A stretch of 23,446 nt of DNA. Origin: a virus. A program made the translations under genes and the position numbers. Under the pieces are notes generated by a model. The model did not search any database. It saw nothing but the letters and a program-made list of their open reading frames with translations, and was not told the DNA's origin. This document shows, piece after piece, positions 4,257 through 23,446 of the stretch. The number at the start of each line of letters is the position of its first letter. The stretch's first letter is position 1. The stretch spans positions 1-23,446 of the IMG/VR virus record IMGVR_UViG_3300020220_000348. The stretch is one strand, 5' to 3'.

Positions 4257-4272
4257 GTCCAATAAATTGGAC
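4257..4272. terminator. perfect 6-bp inverted repeat, candidate terminator or operator (copy 1)
   Basis: GTCCAATAAATTGGAC forms a 6-bp stem with a 4-nt loop, followed by ACTTTT. It starts 7 nt after the stop of the preceding gene and 40 nt before promoter P2. An identical 16-mer lies at 12743-12758 in the same relative position. The U-tract is short, so an operator role is equally possible. Confidence 0.55.
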
Positions 4273-4312
4273 ACTTTTAGGTAAAAATGTGGATAACTTT
4301 TTGAAAAAAGGC

Positions 4313-7918: not shown

Positions 7919-10160
<2,242 letters not shown>

Positions 10161-10182
10161 TTTAAAGTGTAAATATATCCAA

Positions 10183-10761
10183 ATGGAGTTAGAGGATATG
10201 CAATCAGATTTTGATTCTTATCTAAACAATTTTAACTCTTTTTTTGGGCAGTTTATGCGCGAAGATAAAAAAAATGAATCTGGGGGAGATTCAAAAGATG
10301 GTGTTACGGAGTGTTGGGTGAATGAGGAAACGGGGGAAGTTAGACCTGATGAACCCAACACATCCGAACCATCAAAACCAAAACCCCAAATTGAAAAAAA
10401 GGTTGATAGTAAGTATAAAAAGTTATTCAAAACTATATCTATAAAAGCCCATCCTGATAGAGGTGGAAGTGGTGATGATTTTTTACGATTGAAAAAGGCA
10501 TACGATGGTGATAATCTTATAGAAATGGTTGAATTGGCTGTTAAATATGATATAGAGTATGAATTGGATTCCGATGATGAAATACTTATTGAAAAAAACA
10601 TCAAAGGGTATGAGAGTGAAATTGATAATATAAAAAAATCTTTGGCATGGATATGGTGTACATCAACAAATCCACAAGATAAAATTAACATAATCAAAAG
10701 TGTTGAAAGACAAATAGGAAAAGAAATACCATTAGAAAAAATTAATTTGGAGAGTATATGA
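10183..10761 (+). CDS. J-domain (DnaJ-like) protein
   Basis: 192 residues from ATG 10183, which lies 22 nt after the groEL stop. An upstream in-frame ATG (10117) or TTG (10111) would overlap groEL by 44-50 nt. A J-domain-like segment follows a charged linker: KLFKTISIKAHPDRGGSGDDFLRLKKAYD, with the diagnostic HPD at 90-92. The domain sits in the middle of the protein, with a helical N-terminus and a helical C-terminal domain (about 120-192). J-domains stimulate Hsp70 (DnaK) ATPase. Placed after groES-groEL, it suggests a phage-run chaperone set that also recruits host DnaK. There are no Gly/Phe or zinc-finger regions as in full DnaJ. Confidence 0.85.
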   Translation: MELEDMQSDFDSYLNNFNSFFGQFMREDKKNESGGDSKDGVTECWVNEETGEVRPDEPNTSEPSKPKPQIEKKVDSKYKKLFKTISIKAHPDRGGSGDDFLRLKKAYDGDNLIEMVELAVKYDIEYELDSDDEILIEKNIKGYESEIDNIKKSLAWIWCTSTNPQDKINIIKSVERQIGKEIPLEKINLESI

Positions 10762-10949
10762 GTTTTGTGATTGTAAAATACATTAAGAAGAATGTTCCGG
10801 TAATTTTATTGGATGGGCATGGTGAAGTTTGGGAGTTTGAAAATGAAGAGTCGGCAGAGTATTACGCAGCTGTATTTGAAACTAATTCCGATTCGGGTTA
10901 CAAATATGAAGTAAAAGCAGTTGGAAAAATTCACGAAGAACAAAATTAA
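10758..10949 (+). CDS. small unknown protein
   Basis: 63 residues, beta-like N-terminus (MSFVIVKYI, PVILLDGHGEVWEF) and acidic C-terminal helix. Its ATG overlaps the stop of the J-domain gene (ATGA), indicating translational coupling. No family recognised. Confidence 0.7.
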   Translation: MSFVIVKYIKKNVPVILLDGHGEVWEFENEESAEYYAAVFETNSDSGYKYEVKAVGKIHEEQN

Positions 10950-10962
10950 ACTATTTATTCAT

Positions 10963-11598
10963 ATGGACAAAATAATATCAACTATTAAAATTAAGGGTAA
11001 TGATGATTTACAAGCTACATTATCATCTCTTTTTTCAAATCCTAAATCAAACGATTCCGATTGGTTGTTAAGCCAATTTTACGAATCAATTTCAGATGTA
11101 GACACTAATTGTGTTGGCAGTTGTTCTGCTGAATTGAATAGTGTATTCATTGGTGATGAATCAATGTTGGTTCTATCATCCAACAGCGAATTTCCCCATA
11201 ATTTAGTAGATAGGATGTGTGAAATATTCAAAGAAATTGATGAGGATTTTGAAATAAGAGGAACATACGAACATATGGAATATATTTGCGCGGGTGCTTA
11301 CTACGCAACATCTATTGGTTCAGTTTCTACTGAAAAGCAATTGAGTTCTTTGATGAGTAAAGAAGATTATGAGTCTGTTGATACGATTGAATCAAAAATC
11401 TTCTCCATTAAAGATACATTGCTAGAAGTATGTATTGAAGAATTGGATTCTCAATCCATTATGAGATATGATGGTGATTACAATTGGGATGATAATTGGA
11501 ACGATGAGGTTTATGAAATAAATTCAGATGATGATGATATACCTGATTGGTTGATTGATGAGGATGACGATGAAAATAGAAAACATTATGAGGATTAA
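10963..11598 (+). CDS. acidic unknown protein
   Basis: 211 residues from ATG 10963; an in-frame TTG at 10921 would overlap the previous gene and is not favoured. The body is alpha/beta (MDKIISTIKIKGNDDLQATLSSLF, NSVFIGDESMLVLSSNSEF, FEIRGTYEHMEYICAGAYYAT). The C-terminus is strongly acidic (Asp/Glu/Trp-rich, about 165-211, with runs DDDD and DEDDDE). I recognise no family. Acidic tails can mimic DNA or bind basic proteins; that is speculation. Confidence 0.72.
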   Translation: MDKIISTIKIKGNDDLQATLSSLFSNPKSNDSDWLLSQFYESISDVDTNCVGSCSAELNSVFIGDESMLVLSSNSEFPHNLVDRMCEIFKEIDEDFEIRGTYEHMEYICAGAYYATSIGSVSTEKQLSSLMSKEDYESVDTIESKIFSIKDTLLEVCIEELDSQSIMRYDGDYNWDDNWNDEVYEINSDDDDIPDWLIDEDDDENRKHYED

Positions 11599-11602
11599 TA
11601 CT

Positions 11603-12193
11603 ATGAAAAAACTAATATTATTATTATTACTACCATTATACTCTTTTGGACAAGGGAGAGATAGTGTGTATATCAAAAACCAAATCTTTGAAATGGTTTA
11701 TTCGGAAGTTTTGGAGCAACCAAAATGGATTAAGTACAGGGTTCAATGTGCTGAAAATTCAGTATCTCGCAAAGGATTGGATTTCTATAAAGAAAAATCA
11801 TACCATACATCCGATAATGGGGATTATGTGGCGAATGAATGGGATAAAGGGCATATGGCTCCGGCGGCAGCGTTTGGGTGTGATATAAACTTACTCAAAC
11901 AAACATTCACTTACTTAAATTCGGCTCTTCAACATCAATCCTTAAATAGAGGTCCGTGGAAAGAGTTGGAAGAATCTGAAAGGGTGATGAGGCAGAAGGC
12001 AGATGATATTAATATCTATATCAGAGTAGATTTTGAACCACCACTTAAAAAAGTATCAGGTGGTGCTACTATTCCATCTGGATTTTATAAGAAGATTCAT
12101 TCAACAAAGTTGGGTGTATGCGATTGTTATTATTTCAACAATACCGCACCGGCAACATCAGATGTAAGTAAATTTAAAGTTAAGTGTGAATAA
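11603..12193 (+). CDS. secreted DNA/RNA non-specific endonuclease (beta-beta-alpha-Me)
   Basis: 196 residues. MKKLILLLLLPLYSFGQ is a Sec signal peptide with likely cleavage after SFG or at SFGQ. The nuclease core has DKGHM (81-85, general base H84), N106 in YLNSALQ, then HQSLNRGPWKELEE (111-124), which matches the family pattern N-x-x-x-Q...L-N-x-G-x-W-x-x-L-E with metal ligand and support residues. The start is MKK at 11603 because the upstream extension lacks a coherent signal. It would act in the periplasm or outside the cell on DNA and RNA, possibly for nucleotide scavenging or to destroy superinfecting DNA. Confidence 0.9.
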   Translation: MKKLILLLLLPLYSFGQGRDSVYIKNQIFEMVYSEVLEQPKWIKYRVQCAENSVSRKGLDFYKEKSYHTSDNGDYVANEWDKGHMAPAAAFGCDINLLKQTFTYLNSALQHQSLNRGPWKELEESERVMRQKADDINIYIRVDFEPPLKKVSGGATIPSGFYKKIHSTKLGVCDCYYFNNTAPATSDVSKFKVKCE

Positions 12194-12326
12194 TTACTTT
12201 ATACAATCATTGTTTTGGAATACTAAAATAGATGCAATCGTTGGTGTAACGATGAAAGTGGCTTTTACAATGAAACAAATGGGTGCTCCATTTATATATA
12301 AGCAATTTGGTATATTTGAAGAATAA
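12186..12326 (+). CDS. possible 46-residue protein, GTG start
   Basis: An open frame from GTG 12186 (overlapping the nuclease stop by 8 nt) to TAA 12324. It reads as an ordinary hydrophobic/amphipathic peptide (FIQSLFWNTKIDAIVG, then MGAPFIYKQFGIFEE). An internal ATG at 12252 would give 24 residues. It fills the 136-nt gap before the NUDIX gene. There is no recognised family; the only support is the fit to the gap and residue composition. Confidence 0.35.
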   Translation: MNNYFIQSLFWNTKIDAIVGVTMKVAFTMKQMGAPFIYKQFGIFEE

Positions 12327-12329
12327 GGA

Positions 12330-12737
12330 ATGGTTAAAGTAGTTTGCGGATTACTTAGAAACGAAGATAAGGTTTTAATAGGAAAAAGATTAGATACCAA
12401 CCCAAATTGGGGTGGATATTGGGAGTTTCCTGGTGGTAAGGTAGAGGATGATGGTGAAACGGAGTATGAAGCCTTAATTAGAGAGTTCAGAGAGGAATTT
12501 GGGATAGAAATACAACCATTCCACCAATTTAAATCTGCTGTGGGGGATGGTATAGAGTTAATACCCTTTATATGTGATTTTGTATCAGGAAAAGCCTCTC
12601 TTGGAGCGCATACGGAGATTAAATTCGTAGAGATACCCAACCTAAAGCAGTACACCTTTACACCTCTTACAAAGGATATTTTAACCTCTGTGGTGGGTTC
12701 TTATGGGGGGTTCTTTAGGAAAAAGAGGGTTAAATAA
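12330..12737 (+). CDS. NUDIX hydrolase, MutT-like
   Basis: 135 residues. It has the MutT layout: VVCGLLRNEDKVLIGKR, then GGYWEFPGGKVE, then the Nudix helix ending REFREEFGI (51-59; RE 51-52, EE 55-56, G58). The loop between the Nudix Gly and the first Glu has six residues (KVEDDG) instead of the canonical five. The C-terminal LKQYTFTPLTKDIL resembles the MutT end. Likely substrates are oxidised or surplus (d)NTPs. A TATATTTG box lies at 12311-12318, 12 nt upstream of the ATG, but without a TTG at N20. Confidence 0.9.
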   Translation: MVKVVCGLLRNEDKVLIGKRLDTNPNWGGYWEFPGGKVEDDGETEYEALIREFREEFGIEIQPFHQFKSAVGDGIELIPFICDFVSGKASLGAHTEIKFVEIPNLKQYTFTPLTKDILTSVVGSYGGFFRKKRVK

Positions 12738-12742
12738 GAACT

Positions 12743-12758
12743 GTCCAATAAATTGGAC
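12743..12758. terminator. perfect 6-bp inverted repeat (copy 2)
   Basis: The same GTCCAATAAATTGGAC as at 4257, again a few nt (5) after a stop codon, and again followed by ACTTTT, GGTAAAAATGTGGATAA and a TTG-N20-TATATTTA promoter. It could end NUDIX transcription or act as an operator for the downstream promoter. Confidence 0.55.
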
Positions 12759-12783
12759 ACTTTTGGGTAAAAATGTGGATAAA

Positions 12784-12840
12784 TTTAACCTAAATTTAAT
12801 ATAAAAGGCTTGGAAATATGGGTTTTCTGTAGTATATTTA
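12784..12840 (+). promoter_or_regulatory. promoter P5 with upstream element
   Basis: TTTAACCTAAATTTAATAT (12784-12802), TTG 12810-12812, 20-nt spacer, TATATTTA 12833-12840. The upstream element and its 8-nt distance to TTG are identical to P3. The ATG follows the box by 9 nt. Confidence 0.77.
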
Positions 12841-12849
12841 CTATGTAAG

Positions 12850-13011
12850 ATGATTGATATGGAAACGAACCTAATGAGTTTTGAGAAGCCCCTTCGGGTA
12901 TTTGTTCAATTGGTGGTAATTGGTGTGCTGGGTTATTTGACTGTGTTGTCTTATCAGTTGATATCGGTTTTTTATCTAATTACCCAATTAATCGATTATA
13001 TTATTAAATAA
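12850..13011 (+). CDS. small membrane protein, 53 residues
   Basis: MIDMETNLMS leads into a hydrophobic stretch (about 17-50: RVFVQLVVIGVLGYL, then LSYQLISVFYLITQLI), enough for one long or two short transmembrane helices. It starts with the same MID codons as the genes behind P2 and P3. It is directly behind P5, with almost no leader. No family is recognised; early small membrane proteins of phages often modify the host envelope, but that is inference. Confidence 0.72.
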   Translation: MIDMETNLMSFEKPLRVFVQLVVIGVLGYLTVLSYQLISVFYLITQLIDYIIK

Positions 13012-13018
13012 TTTTAAA

Positions 13019-13246
13019 ATGGTAGAACTATTGAATGACTTTGGTTTTTCAACCAAAGAAGAGTATTATGAGTATATTTTGGAGAGTATCCATAATGGAC
13101 AGCATAAGCAGGCCAAAAACCTTTTCAACCAATTACCCAATGATGGTATGACGGGGGAGAGGGCTCAATTTTTTTGGTGGATTGAGGATAAATTTGAGTC
13201 CGGACTTGAAAAAGTTACTCATTTGAAGGAGTACTTTAATGGTTAA
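13019..13246 (+). CDS. small helical unknown protein
   Basis: 75 residues starting 7 nt after the previous stop. Helical, with aromatic clusters (EEYYEYILESIHNGQ; AQFFWWIEDKFE). The pattern of short amphipathic helices recalls a TPR-like repeat (KQAKNLFNQLP) but is too short to call. Co-transcribed with the membrane protein from P5. Confidence 0.7.
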   Translation: MVELLNDFGFSTKEEYYEYILESIHNGQHKQAKNLFNQLPNDGMTGERAQFFWWIEDKFESGLEKVTHLKEYFNG

Positions 13247-13262
13247 TTTTTCAGTCAAAAAA

Positions 13263-13319
13263 CTTAACGATAATTTAATATACAAAATTTGGAAATGTAA
13301 TACTTCTGTATTATATTTA
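13263..13319 (+). promoter_or_regulatory. promoter P6 with variant upstream element
   Basis: CTTAACGATAATTTAATAT (13263-13281), TTG 13289-13291, 20-nt spacer, TATATTTA 13312-13319. The upstream element differs from P3/P5 at three positions but keeps the 8-nt distance to TTG. The gene start at 13341 leaves about a 20-nt gap. Confidence 0.74.
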
Positions 13320-13340
13320 CACTATATTTATTGCTGATAT

Positions 13341-13751
13341 ATGAAAAAACTAAAATACAAAAAACGGACATCTATATCTAATTGGACTGGGGCTCAAAAA
13401 AGAGTTTTATCCGAGCGTATTTTTCGGTGGTGTAAAAACAATATGGGTATTAATGGTAGGTATAAAACGCCAATATCCCTATCTGTTATTCGAAATCAAT
13501 ATGAACCCCAAACTTATGGAGCATTTGACCCCGATGAAAATCAGGTTATCATTTATCACAATAGGATTCGTAGTTTAGAACGCTTGATAACCACTATCAT
13601 ACACGAATATCAACACTCTCTTCAGCCTGTGAAAACCTACTATGGTATATATTCGGTTGTATATGGGTATTGGAAAAATCCGTTGGAGAAAGATGCTAGG
13701 CGGGCAGAAAAGAAATATTATAAAAAAGTTTTTGATTACCTAAATAAATAA
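13341..13751 (+). CDS. zincin-type metalloprotease-like protein
   Basis: 136 residues. HEYQH (88-92) matches the HExxH zinc site within LITTIIHEYQHSLQP; a downstream NPLEKDARRAEK (113-124) offers E116 as a third ligand, as in many gluzincin or SprT-like proteins. The upstream region (GAFDPDENQVIIYHNRI) supplies the strand before the active helix. It has no signal peptide, so it would act in the cytoplasm. The target is unknown. It could cooperate with the ClpS-like adaptor in host protein turnover, but this is inference. Confidence 0.83.
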   Translation: MKKLKYKKRTSISNWTGAQKRVLSERIFRWCKNNMGINGRYKTPISLSVIRNQYEPQTYGAFDPDENQVIIYHNRIRSLERLITTIIHEYQHSLQPVKTYYGIYSVVYGYWKNPLEKDARRAEKKYYKKVFDYLNK

Positions 13752-13764
13752 TAAAAAATACTAT

Positions 13765-13893
13765 ATGAATAAATTAAACACATTTTTCTATCTAATTATA
13801 GAATTATTTTTTGCTGCATCCTCCGTATTTATGGCAGGTTTGTTCGGTTATCTGATTTATATCATAATGAAACCACTACTATCATTGATGTAA
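13765..13893 (+). CDS. 42-residue membrane protein
   Basis: MNKLNTFFYL then a hydrophobic run (7-35: LIIELFFAASSVFMAG, then LFGYLIYIIM). One transmembrane helix, or a tight pair. It sits in the 144-nt gap between the zincin gene and the gene at 13896, 13 nt after one stop and 2 nt before the next ATG, so it fits the operon exactly. No family recognised. Confidence 0.6.
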   Translation: MNKLNTFFYLIIELFFAASSVFMAGLFGYLIYIIMKPLLSLM

Positions 13894-13895
13894 AA

Positions 13896-14576
13896 ATGAC
13901 GCAAATCAATCCCGAATATTACGATTCAGACCCGTTTAATATGAAAAAAAGTAAATTTAGGCCTTTTAAGGACACTCGCTCATTTAGTGTAAAAGCTAAA
14001 GACTTTGGACAATCTCTTCTGTTTTGGAAAGGTAGAAAGAAAGGTACGATTTATACTCGTGATTTGGAGTGGGATGATATTCGTTATATTTTCTTTCCAA
14101 GAAGATTTTCTGAAAAGTATGGTTATTTAGGTTCTGTGCCTGATTACAACAACTATGATAAAGTTATGGTCCCATTGGTTTTGGCTATGGACTATGAAGC
14201 AAAACCTTGGTGGTGTCCTCGTTGGTTTCTTAGATTCCTCCAAGTATTTGGTAATGATAGTTCTATTGTAAGGGTTCGTAACCGAAAGTTACATAATTTA
14301 CATAATAGATTAACTAAAGGAATTACATTCTACGATTATAAGACAAAATGGGAGTGGTATGATTTAAGAATTTCAGTTGTGGGGCCAGAATACATTCAAG
14401 ATTTGGCGGATGCTATTGAAGATCATTATTACAAAATTGGTGTAAGAGACCATACTATTAAACAAATTAAGACATTTGAGCCTGATTTTGATAAAACCTA
14501 TATGACTACAAAGGATCTTGATGATTATTTAGAAACCTTATACGCTAAAGAAGAAAATAATGAACAAAGAGACTAA
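13896..14576 (+). CDS. unknown protein, Trp/Arg/Tyr-rich
   Basis: 226 residues with many aromatic and basic residues (AKPWWCPRWFLRFLQVFG at 102-119; YIFFPRRFSEKYGY). No membrane segment is certain; the WWCPRWFLRFL stretch could be amphipathic. The C-terminus is acidic. It overlaps the next gene by 17 nt. The gene at 15477 has a similar look (aromatic/basic first half, acidic end), but I cannot call homology by eye. Confidence 0.72.
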   Translation: MTQINPEYYDSDPFNMKKSKFRPFKDTRSFSVKAKDFGQSLLFWKGRKKGTIYTRDLEWDDIRYIFFPRRFSEKYGYLGSVPDYNNYDKVMVPLVLAMDYEAKPWWCPRWFLRFLQVFGNDSSIVRVRNRKLHNLHNRLTKGITFYDYKTKWEWYDLRISVVGPEYIQDLADAIEDHYYKIGVRDHTIKQIKTFEPDFDKTYMTTKDLDDYLETLYAKEENNEQRD

Positions 14577-14805
14577 AACAATAGCACAACAAATCAACTG
14601 GGATTTTAAGGCCAACGGTGGCTTGGAAATCAGAGATAAGAAAAATAATATAATCTATTGGGAAACCTCAAAGGGATATTGGTGGAATTCTCAAGATAGA
14701 ATAATCTATGGATTGGATGATTCTGTTAAAGAAAAACAACCCAATTCTTACGATAACAAAGTAGTAGAAATTGATGGTGTAAAATATAAACTAACCAAAA
14801 TATGA
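14560..14805 (+). CDS. small unknown protein
   Basis: 81 residues, beta-rich, with NWDFKANGGLEIRDKKNNIIYWET and a C-terminal VVEIDGVKYKLTKI. Overlaps its upstream neighbour by 17 nt and its downstream neighbour by 4 nt. No family recognised. Confidence 0.7.
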   Translation: MNKETKTIAQQINWDFKANGGLEIRDKKNNIIYWETSKGYWWNSQDRIIYGLDDSVKEKQPNSYDNKVVEIDGVKYKLTKI

Positions 14806-15107
14806 ACAAAGTAATTAGAGATGGTAAAGTAGCAGTTCTTATTTCATATGGATGGGGAGCTGGATTTTATACTTGGGGTGCTCCTCTTGAAGCAATATTT
14901 GACCCAAATTTAGTAGTGTTGATTGAATTAGAAAATTTTGATGGTGCAGAAGAGTATGTTAAAAATACTTATCCAGGTATCAATACCGGAGGAGTTGAAG
15001 ATTTATATATAGAGTGGGTAGATGAAGGTGAAGAATTTACTATCAATGAGTATGATGGAAGTGAAAGTATTCAATTTAAAAACAAAATACAATGGATTAC
15101 AGCATAA
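14802..15107 (+). CDS. conserved phage-type unknown protein
   Basis: 101 residues. Layout: DGKVAVLISYGWGAGFYTWG, then IFDPNLVVLIE, then GVEDLYIEWVDEGEEFTINEYDGSE. I recall phage and bacterial hypothetical proteins with this order (K-V-A-V-L-I-S...G-x-G-A-G-W-x-T-W, D-L-x-I-x-W, EYDG). Function unknown. It overlaps both neighbours (4 and 16 nt). Confidence 0.78.
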   Translation: MNKVIRDGKVAVLISYGWGAGFYTWGAPLEAIFDPNLVVLIELENFDGAEEYVKNTYPGINTGGVEDLYIEWVDEGEEFTINEYDGSESIQFKNKIQWITA

Positions 15108-15490
15108 GACCGGAAGTATTTGAAAGAATTATTATTGAACTTAAAGAACAACAAGAAAGATTAGATAAAGCATATGAAGCAGGTATTGACCATATAAACT
15201 TTACAGGCTCATATGAAAGCGTTATCGCTATGTTGATTGGTTCAATTTATGGTATGGAGGGTAGAGATACATTTGATTGGTGGTGTTATGAAAAGAATTT
15301 TGGGAAACGAACCGATTTGACAATGACAGATAAAGATGATAATGAACTATGTAGAACCATAGAAGAATTACATCAGTATTTGGAAGAAAATAAAGTAAAT
15401 GATTACTACCTCTCAAAATATCAAATTATGACAGATGAGGAACGAAAGGATTTATTAGATAAATTAATATCAGATTATGAAAAACCTTAA
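15092..15490 (+). CDS. unknown protein with GMEGRDTFDWW motif
   Basis: 132 residues. An N-terminal coiled helix (ERIIIELKEQQERLDKAYEAG) precedes GSIYGMEGRDTFDWWCYEKNFG (about 50-71), a striking stretch that looks conserved, and an acidic C-terminal helix (IEELHQYLEE, MTDEERKDLLDKLI). I do not know its function. It overlaps the upstream gene by 16 nt and the downstream gene by 14 nt. Confidence 0.75.
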   Translation: MDYSIRPEVFERIIIELKEQQERLDKAYEAGIDHINFTGSYESVIAMLIGSIYGMEGRDTFDWWCYEKNFGKRTDLTMTDKDDNELCRTIEELHQYLEENKVNDYYLSKYQIMTDEERKDLLDKLISDYEKP

Positions 15491-15983
15491 ATACTATTAC
15501 ATCGAATTTATCTATCAGTCAAAATGTCTAATAAACTTTTTCAAAAATATTTGGAGATTTAGAAAACCACTATATCAATTTAGGTGGTGGGATTACTACA
15601 CTCTATTACAATTTATGCAGATATCCATTGAGCATATGGGGGATAGAACCAAATCCAAAGGTACTGGAGTTGATTCTACTCGCATCCCCAAAATTGCTAA
15701 AATGGAAAGAGCAAGTCAGATTCTAAAAAACCAAATGAATGATTATGTTTATATGGATATGGCTGAAGAAAAGTATGGTAAGTTAATTGATAATGATGGT
15801 GATTTTATTCCATTGGATAGTAATCGTGATTTATTTACTTATGAAGATAAATTAACCGATGAAGAGAGGGAACATAACAGCAAGGTATTTTTATATTCTG
15901 CTGAATTGGATGAAAAGGAATGGGGAGAATTTTGTAATATCATAAAAGATAAGAAAACAGGATTAAAGACTTGGTGGGATTAG
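15477..15983 (+). CDS. unknown protein
   Basis: 168 residues. The N-terminus is aromatic/basic (KYYYIEFIYQSKCLINFFKNIWRFRKPLYQFRWW). The middle has HMGDRTKSKGTGVDSTRIPKI, and the rest is acidic and helical, ending KTGLKTWWD. No family I recognise. It ends the chain of overlapping genes that began at 13896. Confidence 0.72.
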   Translation: MKNLKYYYIEFIYQSKCLINFFKNIWRFRKPLYQFRWWDYYTLLQFMQISIEHMGDRTKSKGTGVDSTRIPKIAKMERASQILKNQMNDYVYMDMAEEKYGKLIDNDGDFIPLDSNRDLFTYEDKLTDEEREHNSKVFLYSAELDEKEWGEFCNIIKDKKTGLKTWWD

Positions 15984-15984
15984 A

Positions 15985-16008
15985 TTTGGGAATATAAAAA
16001 TTATCATT
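15985..16008 (+). repeat. TTTGG-AATATAAAAATTAT repeat, copy 1 of 3
   Basis: TTTGGGAATATAAAAATTAT followed by CATT abuts the SemiSWEET-like ATG (16009). Close copies are at 16284-16307 and 17187-17206. Only the third continues into a TATATTTA box at N20. In this copy the start codon sits where the -7 box would be, so it is a half-promoter by this pattern. Confidence 0.65.
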
Positions 16009-16263
16009 ATGGATACTACTTTAATTATAGGATACATTGGTGGATTCCTTTTGGGAGTATCTTCTATTCCTGAAATGTGGAGAACCATTAAAGATGGTCG
16101 ATGCCATATTGGTTGGGGTATGTTGTTAGTGTGGTTTTTTGGTGAAGTATTTATGGAAATATACGCAATCATATTAAATGATTGGGCACTTATTTTTAAC
16201 TATACCACCAATTTTATAGTTCTTATTGTATTATTGTGGTATAAAATTCGATTACCATATTAG
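16009..16263 (+). CDS. SemiSWEET-like (PQ-loop) membrane protein
   Basis: 84 residues with three hydrophobic helices (about 5-21, 36-55, 60-78), the three-helix bundle of bacterial SemiSWEET sugar transporters, which dimerise to form a pore. The first helix ends IGGFLLGVSSIPEMWRTIK, matching the PQ-loop position, but the second residue of the PQ is Glu. WGMLLVWFFGEVFMEIYAIILNDWALIFNYTTNFIVLIVL follows the usual order of helices 2 and 3. Substrate not readable. Such a gene in a phage is unusual. Confidence 0.82.
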   Translation: MDTTLIIGYIGGFLLGVSSIPEMWRTIKDGRCHIGWGMLLVWFFGEVFMEIYAIILNDWALIFNYTTNFIVLIVLLWYKIRLPY

Positions 16264-16283
16264 ATGTATTTGTGTAAGTAAAA

Positions 16284-16307
16284 TTTGGAAATATAAAAAT
16301 TATCATT
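16284..16307 (+). repeat. TTTGG-AATATAAAAATTAT repeat, copy 2 of 3
   Basis: TTTGGAAATATAAAAATTAT followed by CATT, nearly identical to copy 1 over 24 nt. At the -7 position the best match is TATTGTTT (16307-16314), weaker than TATATTTA. It precedes the ABC membrane-domain gene by 14 nt and may be a weak promoter for it. Confidence 0.6.
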
Positions 16308-16321
16308 ATTGTTTTAAATAG

Positions 16322-17146
16322 ATGAATAAAATATATCAAATATTCAAAGAGTATAAGTGTAAATTACTATTAATTTATTTTTTTATGTTGGTAACGGAGT
16401 TATCAATGATATCACAGCCATTTTTACTTGGGAAAAGTATTGATGGATTAATTAATGGTGGTTGGTTTTGGATTATCTTATTATTTTTATCCTACTCCAT
16501 TTCTAGTCTCGTCAATTACAAAAGAATGGTTTATGACACCAAAGTTTATACACAAATTTACAATGATATTGTTTTACGATTCTTAAAAACTAATAACAAA
16601 TCTGATTCTGTAAAAATTGCCAGAGCTGATATGGCACACGATGTTGTTGGTGTATTAGAGGGATATGTTCATTATTATATTGCAACAATCATCACTATTT
16701 TTGGTTCAATAGGGTTCATATACTTATCAAATTGGAGAGTAGGGTTATTAGTTACTTTAGCTTTAATTGTTATAATACTTGCAGTTCTAATTTATTATAA
16801 AAAAATAAGACAATCTATTGATGTTAAAAACAATAATTACGAGAATAAAGTAACCGCTATACAAAATGGGTATGACACTTCCGTTTCTTTTTTTAATCGT
16901 AAGCGAAAATTGGAAATATTTGAATCAACATTGCAAGGTAAAAATTGGTTTTTGGTTGGCATGATAAAATCAATATTTTTGGTTTTATCCATAATACTTC
17001 TAATAACAACTTCAAATAATATGACTGCTGGTAATGTGGTTACAATATATTCTTATGTTAATAATTTTTTGATATCACTAATGTCAATTCCAGTTGCGTT
17101 TGAGATGTTTTCGAGATTGAACAATATTATTAAAAGAATTAATTGA
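16322..17146 (+). CDS. orphan ABC-exporter transmembrane domain
   Basis: 274 residues with six predicted helices (about 15-35, 48-66, 115-137, 139-161, 214-235, 243-262). Features typical of ABC_membrane domains are visible: LLGKSIDGLINGG after helix 1, the loop MVYDTKVYTQIYNDIVLRFLK, and GNVVTIYSYVNNFLISLMSIPVAFEMFSRLNN near the end. There is no Walker A, signature or Walker B segment and the gene ends just after the membrane domain, so it has no nucleotide-binding domain. Standalone six-helix proteins of this type exist in bacteria. It may use a host ATPase, poison a host exporter, or have another role. Confidence 0.83.
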   Translation: MNKIYQIFKEYKCKLLLIYFFMLVTELSMISQPFLLGKSIDGLINGGWFWIILLFLSYSISSLVNYKRMVYDTKVYTQIYNDIVLRFLKTNNKSDSVKIARADMAHDVVGVLEGYVHYYIATIITIFGSIGFIYLSNWRVGLLVTLALIVIILAVLIYYKKIRQSIDVKNNNYENKVTAIQNGYDTSVSFFNRKRKLEIFESTLQGKNWFLVGMIKSIFLVLSIILLITTSNNMTAGNVVTIYSYVNNFLISLMSIPVAFEMFSRLNNIIKRIN

Positions 17147-17169
17147 ACCTAACTCACTTATTTCTCCAG

Positions 17170-17186
17170 TTTTACTTTAAGTAAAA
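17170..17186. repeat. 17-nt palindrome directly upstream of promoter P7
   Basis: TTTTACTT-T-AAGTAAAA is a perfect inverted repeat of 8 bp around one central base, ending 1 nt before the TTG of P7. It is a candidate operator or a weak terminator hairpin for the ABC gene. Confidence 0.55.
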
Positions 17187-17187
17187 T

Positions 17188-17218
17188 TTGGAAATATAAA
17201 AATTATTTTGTATATTTA
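17188..17218 (+). promoter_or_regulatory. promoter P7
   Basis: TTG 17188-17190, 20-nt spacer, TATATTTA 17211-17218. The ATG at 17222 lies only 3 nt after the -7 box, so transcription would begin at or next to the start codon, giving a leaderless mRNA. Confidence 0.78.
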
Positions 17219-17221
17219 AGT

Positions 17222-17431
17222 ATGAAAACTACTATGCTGAAACAAAGAAATTTTAAATTAAGTAAAACTATAAATCTTCATTTTGGTGAAGAAGCAATGT
17301 GGTATATTACACCAACATTTGGTTTCCAAAGAATTAATTGGGAAGGTATAATTGGTAAAAAAGAAATCACACATCTATTTGTAATAAAATGGTTAAAATC
17401 TAGTGTTGGTATTACTAAAAGATATATTTAA
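17222..17431 (+). CDS. small unknown protein
   Basis: 69 residues, basic, with HFGEEAMWYITPTFGFQRINWEG in the middle. No family recognised. Its last codons contain a TATATTTA box (17423-17430) that precedes the next ATG by 3 nt, copying the TATATTTAAGTATGAAAAC arrangement of its own start. Confidence 0.65.
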   Translation: MKTTMLKQRNFKLSKTINLHFGEEAMWYITPTFGFQRINWEGIIGKKEITHLFVIKWLKSSVGITKRYI

Positions 17432-17433: not shown

Positions 17434-18153
17434 ATGAAAACAATATTCATTGGAGATATCCATGGCCGTCCAATTTGGAAGGACATTGTAGCAAAAGAAA
17501 ACGCTGATAGGGTTATCTTTATTGGAGATTACTTTGATAGTTTTGATATACCTGGCATAGACCAAATTCATAATTTCAAAGAAATAATTGAATATAAAAA
17601 AACAAGCGGTAAAGAGGTTATCCTATTAGTAGGTAATCACGATTTTCATTATATGAATGTTGGTCAAACTTATTCAGGTTTTCAACCCGCTCTTAAATTT
17701 GATATAGAAATGGTACTGAAAGAAAATATGGAACATCTTCAAATGGCATATTCCTTTGATAAGTTCCTATGTACACACGCCGGTGTATCTTCAGTATTTA
17801 TGGATAGGTGGTTTAGAAATATGTGGGATTGTGATAATTTGGTTGAGAAATTAAATGAAACATTTATATACAGCCCATCTATTTTTAAATTTACAGGATG
17901 GGACCCCTATGGTGATGATGTAAACCAATCACCAATTTGGATTCGTCCACGATCTTTGTTATGGTCAAATAAAAAAAGAGGAAAAGATTCTATCAAAGGT
18001 AGATTTATTCAAATTGTAGGCCACACTGGGGTCAGCTCTATTGATATCAAAGCAACAGATAAATCAATGGGGGGTAAATACTATATGATTGATGCTTTAT
18101 CTTCAAAAGAATATTTAATATATGATGGTGAACTTAAAGTAGGAAAATTATGA
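17434..18153 (+). CDS. calcineurin-like metallophosphatase
   Basis: 239 residues with the full set of metallophosphoesterase motifs: GDIHG (7-11), GDYFD (31-35), GNHD (67-70), THAG (114-117) and GHT (196-198). These supply the ligands for a two-metal centre that cleaves phosphomono- or phosphodiesters. The order and spacing resemble phage and bacterial Ser/Thr-phosphatase or Ap4A-hydrolase-like enzymes; the substrate is not readable. Its last residues (DGELKVGKL) lie in a 47-bp repeat shared with the end of the glutamine synthetase gene. The start follows a TATATTTA box by 3 nt. Confidence 0.9.
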   Translation: MKTIFIGDIHGRPIWKDIVAKENADRVIFIGDYFDSFDIPGIDQIHNFKEIIEYKKTSGKEVILLVGNHDFHYMNVGQTYSGFQPALKFDIEMVLKENMEHLQMAYSFDKFLCTHAGVSSVFMDRWFRNMWDCDNLVEKLNETFIYSPSIFKFTGWDPYGDDVNQSPIWIRPRSLLWSNKKRGKDSIKGRFIQIVGHTGVSSIDIKATDKSMGGKYYMIDALSSKEYLIYDGELKVGKL

Positions 18154-18170
18154 TGAATACAACAGCAAAA
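18124..18170 (+). repeat. 47-bp direct repeat, left copy
   Basis: Matches 19201-19247 at 43 of 47 positions by eye. It encodes DGELKVGKL at the end of the phosphatase, then a TGATGAA stop/start overlap and the first codons of a following ORF. The two copies flank the glutamine synthetase gene. Confidence 0.9.
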
Positions 18171-18203
18171 AAAGAAGAAGTATATAATAAATTAAAAGAT
18201 TAA
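18150..18203 (+). pseudogene. 17-codon remnant of the gene at 19230
   Basis: It reads MMNTTAKKEEVYNKLKD and stops 1 nt before the glutamine synthetase ATG. Its first codons align with those of the 94-residue gene at 19230 (MNATTKEIEA), because both start in the 47-bp repeat. It looks like a truncated leftover of a duplication rather than a functional gene, though a leader peptide cannot be excluded. Confidence 0.55.
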
Positions 18204-18204
18204 T

Positions 18205-19230
18205 ATGATAAAATTAGAATACATTTGGTTGGATGGATATACACCCGAACCAAACCTAAGAAGTAAAGTTAAAATATTATCCAAAGAAGATTCTATAACC
18301 CTATCTGAGTGCCCAGAGTGGTCATTCGATGGTTCATCCACAAAACAGGCCGAAGGGCATTATTCTGATAGAATACTTAAACCTGTTGCTTTATACCAAA
18401 ATTCCATGGATGAGGGTTCATATGTAAGTTATTTTGTTTTGTGTGAGGTTATGAATCCCGATGGGACACCACACGAAAGTAATATTAGACACATATTACC
18501 TGATTATGATAATGTATGGTATGGATTTGAGCAGGAATATACTATTTTAAAAGATGGTAGACCGATTGGGTTTCCAATAAATGGATTTCCACCACCACAG
18601 GGTAAGTATTATTGTGGTGTGGGTGATGGGCAAGTAAGTGGTAGAAAATTCGTAGATGAACATCTTCAAATTTGCTTAAATACTGGATTATCAATAACAG
18701 GCACCAACGCAGAAGTACTTTTGGGACAGTGGGAATATCAGATATTCAATACCTCATCAAAATCTGCTGCAGATGACTTGTGGATATCACGATATATCTT
18801 ACAAAGATTATCCGAAAAATGGGGATATAAAATTGAGTTTCACCCAAAACCTGTTATGGGTGATTGGAATGGTAGTGGATTACATTGTAATTTTTCAAAC
18901 CACATAATGAGAGAAATTGGGGGAATGGAATACTTTTCTAAAATATTCAATGTTTTTGAAAGTAGACATACCTTACATATTGAAAATTATGGTTCATCTA
19001 ATGAACAACGATTAACAGGTAAGCATGAAACCCAATCCATACATAAGTTTAGTTGGGGTGTTTCTGATAGAGGTGCATCTTTAAGAGTTCCCATTCAAAC
19101 ATCATTGAATTGGAAGGGATATATTGAGGATAGAAGGCCTGCTTCAAATGCAGACCCGTATAAGATTGTTAAAGTTATTTCGGATGCCTTAAAACAAATT
19201 GATGGTGAACTTAAAGTAGGAAAATTGTGA
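18205..19230 (+). CDS. glnII: type II glutamine synthetase (GlnII-like)
   Basis: 341 residues. Glutamine synthetase joins glutamate and ammonia using ATP. It has the short, eukaryote-like type II form: YIWLDG (6-11), WSFDGSSTKQAEGHYSD (39-55), FEQEY (108-112), PPPQGKYYCGVG, GTNAEVLLGQWEYQ (166-179), HPKPVMGDWNGSGLHCNFS (213-231), NEQRLTGKHET (266-276), FSWGVSDRGASLRVP and EDRRPASNADPY (308-319). The usual ligand and ATP-site segments are all present, so it should be active. The C-terminal DGELKVGKL comes from the flanking repeat and is shared with the preceding phosphatase. Such a gene in a phage may supply glutamine for nucleotide synthesis. Confidence 0.95.
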   Translation: MIKLEYIWLDGYTPEPNLRSKVKILSKEDSITLSECPEWSFDGSSTKQAEGHYSDRILKPVALYQNSMDEGSYVSYFVLCEVMNPDGTPHESNIRHILPDYDNVWYGFEQEYTILKDGRPIGFPINGFPPPQGKYYCGVGDGQVSGRKFVDEHLQICLNTGLSITGTNAEVLLGQWEYQIFNTSSKSAADDLWISRYILQRLSEKWGYKIEFHPKPVMGDWNGSGLHCNFSNHIMREIGGMEYFSKIFNVFESRHTLHIENYGSSNEQRLTGKHETQSIHKFSWGVSDRGASLRVPIQTSLNWKGYIEDRRPASNADPYKIVKVISDALKQIDGELKVGKL

Positions 19231-19247
19231 TGAACGCAACAACAAAA
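19201..19247 (+). repeat. 47-bp direct repeat, right copy
   Basis: Second copy of 18124-18170. It forms the last codons of glutamine synthetase and the first codons of the next gene. The four mismatches suggest the duplication is not very recent. Confidence 0.9.
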
Positions 19248-19514
19248 GAAATAGAAGCAATGAGGGAATGCTATAGGAAACTATATAAAGCATCCACCCC
19301 ATCGGCCGATTTTGATGAATTAATGAACAACGCCACCGTAGATGAAAATGGGCAAAAGGTAATTGATTTTATGGCACATGAAATTTGTGAATACGAATTT
19401 TCTGAAATTGTAGATGAAGTTATTAAAAAACATAAAATTAAAACCCACAGAGTAACACCATTCAAAAACTCAATCTATTTGGGTTGTAGTCCTAAATTTA
19501 AAAAATTAGAATAA
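19230..19514 (+). CDS. unknown protein downstream of glutamine synthetase
   Basis: 94 residues from ATG 19230, in a TGATG overlap with the glutamine synthetase stop; GTG 19227 is an alternative. Helical and acidic in the first two thirds, with a basic C-terminus (KKHKIKTHRVTPF, then CSPKFKKLE). No family recognised. Its stop overlaps the next ATG. Confidence 0.72.
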   Translation: MNATTKEIEAMRECYRKLYKASTPSADFDELMNNATVDENGQKVIDFMAHEICEYEFSEIVDEVIKKHKIKTHRVTPFKNSIYLGCSPKFKKLE

Positions 19515-19762
19515 TGAGAGAACAAATATTTTTAGAACTTGGATTTGAAAAAACAGTTGTAACTGCAGAAGAATCCGGTGCTCCTACCGATTGGCACTAT
19601 TATACATTGGATATTGGTGATTTGTGTTTGATAACATCATCAAGCGATGAAATCAAAGATGATACTTGGTATTGTTATTTCTTTGAATCAAATCAATTTA
19701 AAATAAAAAATGAAACTGATTTAAAGGATTTGGTTGAAGTTCTTAGGAGGTGTTGGAAATGA
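19514..19762 (+). CDS. small unknown protein
   Basis: 82 residues: MREQIFLELGFEKTVVTAEESG, then WHYYTLDIGDLCLITSSSDEI and a C-terminal helix. The order helix, beta strands, helix suggests a small alpha/beta fold. No family recognised. The TAGGAGG at its 3' end serves the next gene. Confidence 0.68.
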   Translation: MREQIFLELGFEKTVVTAEESGAPTDWHYYTLDIGDLCLITSSSDEIKDDTWYCYFFESNQFKIKNETDLKDLVEVLRRCWK

Positions 19763-19986
19763 TACATGAGTATATTCAAATATATTTATTGGGGTATCTA
19801 ATATTTTCTCCTATACTATATTCGCTTAGGTTTATTAATGAAAAATTAACTTTAAGTGATGGTGCTATAATTGGTTGGCCTTTTATGTGGCCAATCCTTG
19901 CACCAATATTTTTTGGTTCAGTAGTTGTTGGGTTTTTATTTGGTTTTTTTAAGAGTATTTTTAACTTATTTAATAATAAAAAATAA
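19759..19986 (+). CDS. small membrane protein with two helices
   Basis: 75 residues from ATG 19759, chosen over GTG 19750 because TAGGAGG (19744-19750) lies 8 nt upstream of the ATG. Two hydrophobic stretches (about 5-22 and 36-66) and a short basic end (NNKK). It overlaps the preceding gene by 4 nt. No family recognised. Confidence 0.7.
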   Translation: MIHEYIQIYLLGYLIFSPILYSLRFINEKLTLSDGAIIGWPFMWPILAPIFFGSVVVGFLFGFFKSIFNLFNNKK

Positions 19987-20009
19987 CTATTTATATTGGG
20001 AGTATAATA

Positions 20010-20774
20010 ATGAAATTAAAAGAAATACTTAATAATATAATTAGAAAAAACTACCTTATTGAAGGTGTTGATGATCCAGGTATATTAAAGTGTATATTTA
20101 TGGCGGGGGGTCCTGGTTCAGGAAAAAGTTTCACAGCATCAGAAGTATTTGGTATTGATAAGAGATATAAATCATCATTTGCTCAATCCGGCTTAAAAGT
20201 AATTAATTCCGATACGGCGTTTGAAGCCCAATTAAAGAAAAATGGTATTAATCCAAAAGATTTGGGTAGAATTGAAAGAGAAGAGCCTGAATTGTGGAAA
20301 AAAATTACTGAAGTTCCTGGTGGTATTAGAGATAGAGCAAAACAAATAACCAAAGCACAAAGAGATTTCTATGAAGCAGGCCGTTTGGGCCTAATTATTG
20401 ATGGAACGGGTGATGATTTTGCAAAAATTAAACAACAAAAACAACATGCCGAATCTTTAGGATACGATTGTATGATGGTGTTTGTAAATACATCATTGGA
20501 AGTTGCTAAGGAAAGAAATCATGGTAGAGATAGAACATTATCAGATGAGTTAGTAACATCTATTTGGAAAGATTGCCAAGAGAATATGGGTAAATTTCAA
20601 ACTTTATTTGGTGCAAAAGATTATAGAATAATTGATAACACCATTTATGGCCCACCTCCTGCCGCAGTTCAAAAAGCTGTGAATGAGTTTATGAGAAGGC
20701 CGGTATATAACCCTATTGGTAAAAAATGGATTGAAACTGCAAGAGCTTTAAAAAAAGTTGGAGAAATAAAATGA
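20010..20774 (+). CDS. zeta-toxin-like P-loop kinase
   Basis: 254 residues. Walker A is GGPGSGKS (33-40) after KCIFMA. The segment LGLIIDGTGDDFAKI (about 125-139) and FVNTSLEVAKERNHGRDR match the AAA_33/zeta-toxin family, which phosphorylates UDP-sugars or other small substrates, or nucleic acid ends. The N-terminus (MKLKEILNNIIRKNYLIEG) is a helix common in phage proteins. No epsilon antitoxin is seen. A GGGAG ribosome site precedes the ATG. It overlaps the next gene by 4 nt (ATGA). Confidence 0.85.
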   Translation: MKLKEILNNIIRKNYLIEGVDDPGILKCIFMAGGPGSGKSFTASEVFGIDKRYKSSFAQSGLKVINSDTAFEAQLKKNGINPKDLGRIEREEPELWKKITEVPGGIRDRAKQITKAQRDFYEAGRLGLIIDGTGDDFAKIKQQKQHAESLGYDCMMVFVNTSLEVAKERNHGRDRTLSDELVTSIWKDCQENMGKFQTLFGAKDYRIIDNTIYGPPPAAVQKAVNEFMRRPVYNPIGKKWIETARALKKVGEIK

Positions 20775-21133
20775 TTAGATTAATTGGTATATTGTTTTTA
20801 TTATTAGTTTCGTGTGGAACTCCCACATACACTACAATAACACCCACCAACCCACCTTCAGTATCTTATTGGGATGATATTTATTTTCCACCATCCGGTC
20901 CATATATATCACCGTATAATAATAGGTGGAATTTTTATAGTTGGAGATATGTTCCATCACCCCCAGTGGTAATTCATCGGGGGCCTGTGATAGTAACTCC
21001 ACCAAGACCAAGATATTACTATCAATCTCCCCCACGAAGGGATAGGATGAATAGACCAAACATAATTCACCGCCCACGAAGTGGGAGGGGTTATCCACGA
21101 GTTTATACACCACCACGATCAAGAAATAGGTAG
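20771..21133 (+). CDS. proline/tyrosine/arginine-rich lipoprotein
   Basis: 120 residues. MIRLIGILFLLLVSCG is a lipoprotein signal peptide with a Cys at 15 (L-V-S-C). The mature chain is extremely rich in Pro, Tyr, Arg and Ser (for example PPSGPYISPYNNRW, PRPRYYYQSPPRRD), basic and probably unstructured. It would be lipid-anchored in the envelope. A similar composition occurs in bacterial outer-membrane proteins of unknown role. It is coupled to the zeta-like kinase gene by a 4-nt overlap. Confidence 0.8.
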   Translation: MIRLIGILFLLLVSCGTPTYTTITPTNPPSVSYWDDIYFPPSGPYISPYNNRWNFYSWRYVPSPPVVIHRGPVIVTPPRPRYYYQSPPRRDRMNRPNIIHRPRSGRGYPRVYTPPRSRNR

Positions 21134-21170
21134 TTAAAAATTTAAAGAAATAAAATAAAAGGAGAAAATA

Positions 21171-21515
21171 ATGGCTCAAATACATCCATTAAAAAGTGAG
21201 TTTGGTTTAGGTGGTGGAACATACCTATCAGGCTCTGTAAGCATGAGTTTTTCAATTTCATCGGGTTCTATTAATAATCGTACTATTACATCAACAGCAT
21301 ATTGCTACTACCCAATACAACAATCGGTTGCTGTTATTAGAATGAAAACTGATGGAACTAATCCTGTTGCAAATGGTGGGTTTATCGGAGTTGGTACTAG
21401 TACTGGATTAACTTTTGCAGCAGGTACTCCTATATACGGCCCGATACTACAAATAACACAATCTTCAGGCCATGCTATTGTATGGAATTCTGTACGAGAT
21501 AGCGATGATTTATAA
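21171..21515 (+). CDS. small beta-rich, possibly structural protein
   Basis: 114 residues with no charged clusters; Ser/Thr/Gly-rich and beta-prone (LSGSVSMSFSISSGSINNRTITSTAY, then TGLTFAAGTPIYGP). This composition is typical of virion decoration or fibre-tip proteins, but I recognise no family. A strong AAAAGGAG site sits 6 nt before the ATG, suggesting high expression. Confidence 0.7.
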   Translation: MAQIHPLKSEFGLGGGTYLSGSVSMSFSISSGSINNRTITSTAYCYYPIQQSVAVIRMKTDGTNPVANGGFIGVGTSTGLTFAAGTPIYGPILQITQSSGHAIVWNSVRDSDDL

Positions 21516-21532
21516 AATAAAAGGAGAATAAA

Positions 21533-21727
21533 ATGGCAGTTAAATTTAGAGTTTATAAACAATTTTTACCAATTACTCCAAAAATTTGGGTAGCAAAATT
21601 AGATGAAACTGATGATATAGATGATTTTGATACAATTGAAGAAGCAGAAACTTTTGCGCAGCAAGCAAACGAATTAGATACAACTGGTAGAAAATATCGT
21701 GTTCAACAAATAGAAGTGGATGCTTAA
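21533..21727 (+). CDS. small acidic unknown protein
   Basis: 64 residues: MAVKFRVYKQFLPITPKIWVAKL, then a very acidic middle (DETDDIDDFDTIEEAE) and a C-terminal helix/strand. It shares with the preceding gene an AAAAGGAG site at the same spacing, so the two are probably co-expressed at a high level. No family recognised. Confidence 0.7.
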   Translation: MAVKFRVYKQFLPITPKIWVAKLDETDDIDDFDTIEEAETFAQQANELDTTGRKYRVQQIEVDA

Positions 21728-21744
21728 TATGGAGTATTGTAGTT

Positions 21745-22026
21745 ATGAACCCCGCCAAATTCATTTCCTTTTTGCAGGGGTTATTGACCCACAATAGATT
21801 TATATGGTTTAGTAAATCTAAATATTATTTTTCACAAAAGGAGCCAGTTTTGGAATTAAATATAGAATTAATACCTGTTGAAAGTAAAATAACTGATGAT
21901 GAATTATCTAAACTTAGGCGGGTTTTAGAAGATGGAATTAAAGTTGATGGCGATGGGGTTATCAAAGTAAAAATTCACTCAAAAAATGTAAAAAAAATTA
22001 TTGAAAGTATTGTAAATATGGAATAA
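21745..22026 (+). CDS. small unknown protein, start uncertain
   Basis: 93 residues from ATG 21745. Residues 36-93 (LELNIELIPVESKITDDELSKLRRVLEDGIKV...) form a coherent alpha/beta domain; the first 35 residues look less constrained. An in-frame TTG at 21850 lies 6 nt after an AAAAGGAG site, giving 58 residues and possibly the real start. No family recognised. The -33 TTG of P8 lies in its last codons. Confidence 0.6.
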   Translation: MNPAKFISFLQGLLTHNRFIWFSKSKYYFSQKEPVLELNIELIPVESKITDDELSKLRRVLEDGIKVDGDGVIKVKIHSKNVKKIIESIVNME

Positions 22027-22040
22027 ATTTTGTATATTTA
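22010..22040 (+). promoter_or_regulatory. promoter P8 of the methylglyoxal synthase gene
   Basis: TTG 22010-22012, 20-nt spacer, TATATTTA 22033-22040. The ATG at 22044 follows by 3 nt, so the transcript should be leaderless. Confidence 0.78.
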
Positions 22041-22043
22041 CAT

Positions 22044-22418
22044 ATGTTTAATATCGCAGTTATAGCACACGATGGCAAAAAAGCCGATATGGTGGCTTTT
22101 ATAATGAAGAGATTGGATTTCTTCAAAAACCAAAGAATCATTGCAACAGGTACAACAGGAACTCATATAGAGCATGCTGGTATTAATGTTGAAAAGAAAA
22201 AATCAGGCCCATTGGGTGGTGATGCTCAAATAGCATCAATGATAGCAGATGGTAAAATAGATGGTGTTGTTTTTTTTGTAGACCCATTAGTGGTTCACCC
22301 ACATATAGTAGATGTTAATATGCTTTTAAGGGTGTGTAATGTTTACAATATACCACTTGCTACAAATTATGCAACCGCATCTCTTCTTATTGATGGGTTT
22401 AAATCAAAAATTGATTAA
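22044..22418 (+). CDS. mgsA: methylglyoxal synthase
   Basis: 124 residues. Methylglyoxal synthase turns dihydroxyacetone phosphate into methylglyoxal and phosphate. Family blocks: IAVIAHDGKK (4-13), ATGTTGTH (34-41), KSGPLGGDAQIASMI (53-67), FFVDPL (77-82), HPHIVDVNMLLRVCNVYNIPLATNYATASLLI. Residues corresponding to E. coli H19, D71, D91, H98 and D101 are all present (H9, D60, D80, H87, D90), so it is probably active. It is slightly shorter than cellular enzymes. It stands alone behind its own promoter. A phage copy might drain glycolysis, release phosphate or harm competitors; that is inference. Confidence 0.93.
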   Translation: MFNIAVIAHDGKKADMVAFIMKRLDFFKNQRIIATGTTGTHIEHAGINVEKKKSGPLGGDAQIASMIADGKIDGVVFFVDPLVVHPHIVDVNMLLRVCNVYNIPLATNYATASLLIDGFKSKID

Positions 22419-22439
22419 TTAGTATATAAAAACAAACTT

Positions 22440-22532
22440 ATGAATAGAGAAAATAAACCAGAAGATATACTTTTGTTGATGGGAATAGTAGGGATTGTTG
22501 GTATGATTATTATAGTTCTAATGACACTTTAA
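22440..22532 (+). CDS. 30-residue single-pass membrane peptide
   Basis: MNRENKPEDI followed by a hydrophobic helix (LLLMGIVGIVGMIIIVLMTL). Its stop lies 1 nt before the thymidylate synthase ATG. The clear amphipathic-to-hydrophobic layout and tight spacing support a real gene despite its size. Function unknown. Confidence 0.5.
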   Translation: MNRENKPEDILLLMGIVGIVGMIIIVLMTL

Positions 22533-22533
22533 T

Positions 22534-23446
22534 ATGAACAATTTAGATAAACAATACCAATCACTCCTGCAAGACATTCTTGATAATGGAGTGGAAAAGA
22601 AAGACCGAACAGGCACTGGAACACTATCGGTGTTTGGTAGACAGATACGCCATAAAATGAGTGAAGGGTTTCCATTACTTACAACCAAGAAAATGGCTTG
22701 GAAATCAATAGTAACAGAACTACTTTGGTTTTTAAGGGGTGATACAAACATCAAATACCTTATTGATAATGATTGTCATATTTGGGATGGTGATTGCTTT
22801 GCTAACTATGTTAGAAACTTTACTAAATATGTAGACTCTTTACCCGATGGTGGTGAAACAGAATTTATTATTGATAAGGATAAATTCATCAACAAAATCA
22901 AAAATGATGATGAGTTTGCAAAGACATGGGGTGAATTAGGGCCAATCTATGGTAAGCAATGGAGAAGATGGAAAGGTAAGTTAATAGACAAATCAAAGGA
23001 GTTTGATGCTCATACAGCTTGGGTACCTGAACAAATAGACCAAATCGCAAACCTAATCAACGAACTTAAAACAAATCCAGACTCAAGACGACTAATGGTA
23101 TCAGCTTGGAATGTTAGTGAATTAGACCAAATGGTACTTCCACCTTGTCATTATGGATTTCAAGTTTATACAAGAGAGTTGACATGGGATGAAAGACATG
23201 AATTAGCAGAAACTAAATACCAATTAGATGATACAGACGAAGAATTGAATAAACAAAATGTTCCAACCAGAGCAATCTCCTTGATGTTCAATATGCGTAG
23301 TAACGATGTCCCATTGGGACTTCCGTTTAATTTGGCATCATACGGACTACTTTTAGAAATTATCGCAAAAGAAGTTAATATGATTCCTAACGAACTAATT
23401 GCGAGTCTCGGTGATGCTCATATCTATCTAAATCAAATTGATGGGG
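22534..23446 (+). CDS. thyA: thymidylate synthase (ThyA), 3' end beyond window
   Basis: At least 304 residues; the frame is open at the window edge. Thymidylate synthase methylates dUMP to dTMP with methylene-tetrahydrofolate. Family motifs: DRTGTGTLSVFG (23-34), FPLLTTKK, ELLWFLRGDTN, ELGPIYGKQWR, PDSRRLMVSAWN, PPCHYGFQ with catalytic C205, RSNDVPLGLPFNLASY, and GDAHIYLNQ at the edge. C205 corresponds to E. coli C146, so about 59 extra residues lie upstream of it, mainly between IWDGDCFANY and ELGPIYG, as in some other phage enzymes. It should be active. Confidence 0.97.
   Translation, partial: MNNLDKQYQSLLQDILDNGVEKKDRTGTGTLSVFGRQIRHKMSEGFPLLTTKKMAWKSIVTELLWFLRGDTNIKYLIDNDCHIWDGDCFANYVRNFTKYVDSLPDGGETEFIIDKDKFINKIKNDDEFAKTWGELGPIYGKQWRRWKGKLIDKSKEFDAHTAWVPEQIDQIANLINELKTNPDSRRLMVSAWNVSELDQMVLPPCHYGFQVYTRELTWDERHELAETKYQLDDTDEELNKQNVPTRAISLMFNMRSNDVPLGLPFNLASYGLLLEIIAKEVNMIPNELIASLGDAHIYLNQIDG

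Follow-up and report, generated by a model that had tools for sequence, protein, structure and literature searches.

The window analysed here is the whole 23,446-nt stretch of the IMG/VR virus record IMGVR_UViG_3300020220_000348. It carries genes for an endolysin, a holin-like protein, GroES/GroEL, a NUDIX protein, methylglyoxal synthase, and thymidylate synthase, nearly all of them on the plus strand. At 18205..19230, also on the plus strand, lies a gene for a type II glutamine synthetase (GlnII/GSIIB) of 341 aa with an ATG start and no internal stop; its GC content (35%, GC3 24%) is similar to that of the neighbouring genes. The upstream neighbour is a calcineurin-like metallophosphoesterase (17434..18153, plus strand; Pfam Metallophos, 6.4e-11) whose stop overlaps the next start (ATGA). 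Downstream is a 95-aa gene without an assigned function (19227..19514, plus strand), in which no Pfam family scored above its cut-off. A promoter-like site, TTTG-N20-TATATTTA, was found at 17187..17218 on the plus strand, ahead of the gene run formed by the phosphoesterase and the glutamine synthetase. The general form TTTG-N20-TANNTTTR has six matches in the window, all on the plus strand, against 0.88 expected. Five of them end in TATATTTA; these units, at 2877, 4656, 7559, 13288, and 17187, all stand ahead of genes, within longer repeats (D1, D2, D7, and D13). Sites of this type fit the Bacteroidota promoter pattern.

Both domains of a glutamine synthetase were recognised above the Pfam cut-offs, a beta-grasp domain at about residues 4-85 (Gln-synt_N, PF03951, 4.8e-10) and a catalytic domain at about residues 104-330 (Gln-synt_C, PF00120, 5.5e-15), on one chain whose length falls within the GSII range of about 330-370 aa. 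The NCBIfam GlnII profile NF041605 matched residues 2-328 with an E-value of 1.1e-114, against 6e-14 for GSI and 6e-7 for type III. The score of 383 bits lies under the profile cut-off of 500, which is reached by none of the Verrucomicrobiota GlnII from 145 genomes (best score 406). Among sequence matches in the PDB, the type II enzymes of yeast (1.2e-94), plants, and Streptomyces (6e-92) ranked first, and GSI followed only at 1e-10. An AlphaFold model built from a 26-sequence alignment had a mean pLDDT of 90.7 and a pTM of 0.92, and its best PDB match by Foldseek was the Streptomyces GlnII 4bax (TM 0.92/0.91), followed by human, maize, and yeast GSII, the top matches all being GSII. Of the three types, GSI, GSII, and GSIII, the protein is thus nearest to GSII by both sequence and fold. 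The chain stops soon past the RRPxSNxDPY region, and the GSI adenylylation loop/site motif (NLYDLP) is absent from the sequence.

Using the published metal ligands (PMC3975887) and established residue roles, we aligned the window protein with the maize enzyme: D42, E109, E111, E170, E177, and H227 correspond to maize D56, E129, E131, E192, E199, and H249, and E275, R289, R294, E308, and R310 to maize E297, R311, R316, E330, and R332. All 11 metal-binding or catalytic positions checked are invariant across 37 viral sequences. Compared with the 87% identical copy of the related contig L003, dN was 0.070 and dS 0.60 (dN/dS about 0.12), and the pairwise dN/dS with the contig L002 was 0.25. Those values indicate purifying selection, which together with the E-values excludes a chance match. 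The preliminary description, which had recognised a type II glutamine synthetase with all the catalytic-type motifs, is therefore confirmed by profiles, aligned residues, and fold, and the gene probably encodes an intact, working enzyme. We consider it likely, judging from the sequence and the predicted model, that this type II glutamine synthetase is catalytically competent and serves the phage as an auxiliary metabolic enzyme, expressed in the course of infection; its position within a same-strand run of phage genes, under a promoter-like site of the Bacteroidota type, supports this reading.

Two other functions were weighed. The protein might act as a regulator, a decoy, or a structural protein, for example by titrating nitrogen regulators or evading host defence, so that catalysis would be dispensable. 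The glutamine synthetases of some bacteria do bind regulators such as GlnR and PII, and no conserved metabolic partner genes lie near the phage gene, no gene family adjoining it in more than six of 33 contexts; since the neighbours are not conserved among phages, no pathway partner could be identified. However, full conservation of the catalytic residues across divergent phages would not be expected if catalysis were dispensable, and this makes a noncatalytic role improbable. It is about as improbable that the enzyme is a glutamine synthetase superfamily amidoligase joining glutamate not to ammonium but to another amine, such as a polyamine or the precursor of a modified base. The superfamily includes such enzymes, some relatives of the window protein have C-terminal extensions of about 30-90 residues, and the window protein matches the NCBIfam profile for gamma-glutamylputrescine synthetase very weakly (1.2e-4). 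Against it, the protein retains every GSII ligand, among them the aspartate at the position of maize D56, and true GSII are far closer (1e-114) than gamma-glutamyl-amine synthetases (1e-4).

Relatives of the window GlnII were found at 66 IMG/VR loci, on contigs of up to 271 kb, and in three uncultured huge phages of 635-735 kb (LR756501, LR756502, and LR745206), whose copies are 46-56% identical to that of the window. In the contigs L001, L002, and L003 the gene is flanked by the same neighbours as in the window. These loci, the viral clade described below, and the phage neighbours bear out the proposal that the glutamine synthetase is phage-encoded. Searched at the nucleotide level against named phages, the window gave no match. 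The nearest relatives of its thymidylate synthase are those of cultured Flavobacterium phages (64%). The window probably belongs to a large phage of a Bacteroidota host, an assignment that we infer, and regard as plausible, from the promoter-like sites, the kinship of the thymidylate synthase, and the hosts predicted for comparable phages (PMC12619734).

In a maximum likelihood tree of 83 sequences, among which there was no Bacteroidota GSIIB, the window GlnII belongs to a clade (support 98/93) that comprises 16 viral rows and a single archaeal one. It branches with bacterial GSIIB, apart from the eukaryotic GSIIE (split support 100/99), which share its fold and catalytic residues (maize 2d3a, yeast 3fky, and human). 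The term "eukaryote-like" used in the preliminary description is therefore loose. The bacterial enzymes (rhizobia, Verrucomicrobiota, and Streptomyces 4bax) agree with the window enzyme in length, domain make-up, fold, and active site, but the nearest one found is at most 56% identical to the window copy, which is phage-encoded, standalone, and accessory. Phylogenetic placement thus puts the gene in a viral clade well away from the bacterial GlnII sampled, and statements on the original donor are limited to that sampling, which Bacteroidota GSIIB did not enter. The only Bacteroidota match, on a Persicobacter plasmid (22%), was rejected as a Bacteroidota GSIIB; it is a degenerate glutamine synthetase-like protein. 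A type II enzyme had been presented as unusual for Bacteroidota, which were said usually to rely on GSI or GSIII. This is not supported, since GSIIB has been reported in some Bacteroidetes, Flavobacteria, and Cytophaga (PMC2978018), and a type II enzyme as such is not foreign to the phylum. A single origin of the viral GlnII was also rejected: constraining them to one clade gave an AU p of 9e-8, so GlnII moved into or out of phages on several occasions. In the GlnII of the contigs L006-L012 the C-terminus is extended by about 85 residues that end in CDGSCGTFK and are conserved in that subgroup.

The archaeal member of the clade comes from a Heimdallarchaeota MAG (L068, PBWW01000069.1, 5989-6978) and is 64-65% identical to the window GlnII. 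On this contig GlnII, encoded on the opposite strand, is flanked to one side by exosome genes (Rrp4, Rrp41, and Rrp42) and SBDS and to the other by isoleucyl-tRNA synthetase. With such archaeal genes on both flanks, a misbinned phage contig was rejected. No GlnII was detected at E 1e-40 in any of 226 other Asgard genomes. The tree suggests, not decisively, that the archaeal sequence is strictly nested within the viruses; a clade of viruses without the archaeal row had an AU p of 0.27.

Taken as query, the phosphoesterase upstream of the synthetase gave 35 contigs. In seven of them (L095, L096, L098, L099, L101, L102, and L103) the 95-aa gene comes immediately after the phosphoesterase, with no glutamine synthetase in between, which is an exact empty site. 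Two of these, L095 and L098, share 99.6% identity with the window across 10020-16004. The sequence of the empty site is present twice in the window, as 58-nt direct repeats (D9; 88% identical to each other) on either side of the glutamine synthetase gene. The left copy (18123..18180, plus strand) covers the end of the phosphoesterase and the beginning of a truncated version of the next gene. This version is a 17-codon remnant ORF, MMNTTAKKEEVYNKLKD (18150..18203, plus strand), in which the 5' end of the downstream gene survives, cut off and positioned between the phosphoesterase and the glutamine synthetase. The right copy (19200..19257, plus strand) covers the C-terminus of the glutamine synthetase together with the first part of the downstream gene, and equals the empty-site sequence of the relatives that lack the synthetase. 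Accordingly, the last nine residues of the enzyme, DGELKVGKL, are those of the phosphoesterase end. Because the right repeat supplies both the end of the synthetase and the beginning of the full-length next gene, the overlap of stop and start is kept at the right junction. The copy in L003 is without the repeat and has a different end.

The glutamine synthetase gene could be lost or gained via these repeats, and recombination between them would, we infer, regenerate an empty configuration of the kind seen in L098. Compared with L002, the window has 16 differences per 1000 positions in the glutamine synthetase stretch (18223-19222) and 87 per 800 further downstream (19823-20622); the smaller number within the gene suggests a recent exchange of this segment. 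What is new here is the glutamine synthetase as a presence/absence cassette with an exact empty site, which is more unusual than the enzyme itself; in the literature covered, which was incomplete, we found no report of type II glutamine synthetase in phages or of an empty site flanked by repeats. On a more tentative footing, the phage GlnII may be a mobile metabolic cassette that has spread among large phages by recombining at a conserved junction between genes, with direct repeats left behind through which it can be cleanly removed, and the same pool may have donated the gene to the Heimdallarchaeota archaeon. A second indel lies beside the site, a 1.4-kb segment (16005-17422) absent from L095 and L098 that encodes an ABC-transporter membrane domain protein of 274 aa; no ATPase domain was found in this protein.

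The window backbone itself changes type close to the cassette. No difference separates the window from L109 between 11434 and 17954, the point at which that contig ends, or from L095 between 17423 and 17998, after which the two differ, whereas against L001 the window shows 15 differences in 17470-17827 and a single one in 17828-23446. From this pattern of SNP positions, the backbone switches within a crossover tract at 17828..17998 (plus strand), inside the phosphoesterase gene, from the L095/L109 type on the left to the L001 type on the right. L001 in turn follows L096 upstream, with one difference in 6000 bases, to near the end of the phosphoesterase and then departs. The join is due either to phage recombination, for which the tract would be a hot spot, or to an assembler that connected strains through the shared 171-base tract, and the L095-type upstream half and the half with the glutamine synthetase may not derive from one genome. 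The join leaves the synthetase untouched, and the half from this gene downstream is independently supported. That the gene belongs to the host and sits in a misassembled contig, a case raised in the preliminary description, is extremely unlikely: there is indeed a join, but it connects two phage backbones with phage relatives on both sides, the synthetase and its downstream genes have the same neighbours in L001, L002, and L003, the nearest bacterial GlnII found is only 56% identical, and bacterial genes never flank the gene. In the L001 contig a second GlnII, 59% identical to the first, in frame and intact, lies about 8 kb upstream and belongs to another viral branch (L129 / G005:C1:11138-12196; G036:C1:85539-86597; also G045, G046, and G051). 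G036 has only this second type, and the presence of two GlnII in one L001 genome may be an effect of assembly.

Glutamine synthetases have been noted before in viruses. They occur in nine of 25 moraphages, large aquatic phages with predicted Bacteroidota hosts, where the gene was called an auxiliary metabolic gene (PMC12619734); for jumbo phages they are on record as accessory genes (PMC12619734, PMC13037316), and they were noted earlier in marine viromes (PMC9083009). The window enzyme thus joins a known group. Similar to the moraphages, the window combines the gene with a large phage and a predicted Bacteroidota host. The accessible part of the moraphage paper states neither the type of the synthetase nor its insertion sites, and does not mention the GroEL/GroES that the window phage carries. 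The markers that define the moraphage clade in that paper (TerL, MCP, and PolB) were found neither in the window nor in the nearest contigs. The huge phages LR756501, LR756502, and LR745206 likewise have a type II enzyme, but on different branches of the tree and in different gene neighbourhoods. A nitrogen-assimilation enzyme is thus a recurrent accessory gene of large phages, acquired several times.

If the gene acts as a glutamine synthetase in infection, the enzyme would join glutamate and ammonium set free during infection, and this would keep glutamine available to host enzymes for purines, CTP, amino sugars, and protein. The supply would escape the control that the host normally exerts on its own glutamine synthetases. 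The resistance to host feedback control proposed in the preliminary description is a candidate property, on which the sequence shows the lack of the GSI adenylylation motif. The phage would benefit under some conditions only, which fits the accessory, on/off distribution of the gene. Nearly identical phages with and without it form a natural pair for measuring this benefit. Glutamine-dependent amidotransferases of the phages were rejected as the consumer; they are too rare, their domains being found in three of the 26 phage records searched, all three among the 20 that carry a glutamine synthetase (PF13522 in two, PF00117 in one). Any use of the glutamine would therefore fall mainly to host enzymes. 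The idea that the enzyme supports nucleotide synthesis alongside the phage thymidylate synthase is weak for the same reason, the neighbours being variable too and thymidylate synthase consuming no glutamine; help to nucleotide synthesis is possible as an indirect effect.

Other features of the window include the methylglyoxal synthase gene (22044-22418), which matches its NCBIfam profile above the cut-off (4.6e-47) and is kept at 90-96% identity in relatives. Within a 137-aa ORF (5758-6171) there is a tandem 87-nt duplication (D3, 5954-6127; 86% identical). An intergenic 48-nt repeat (D11), present at 4253-4300 and 12739-12786 with 96% identity, holds the palindrome-like TGTCCAATAAATTGGACA and is a possible operator.
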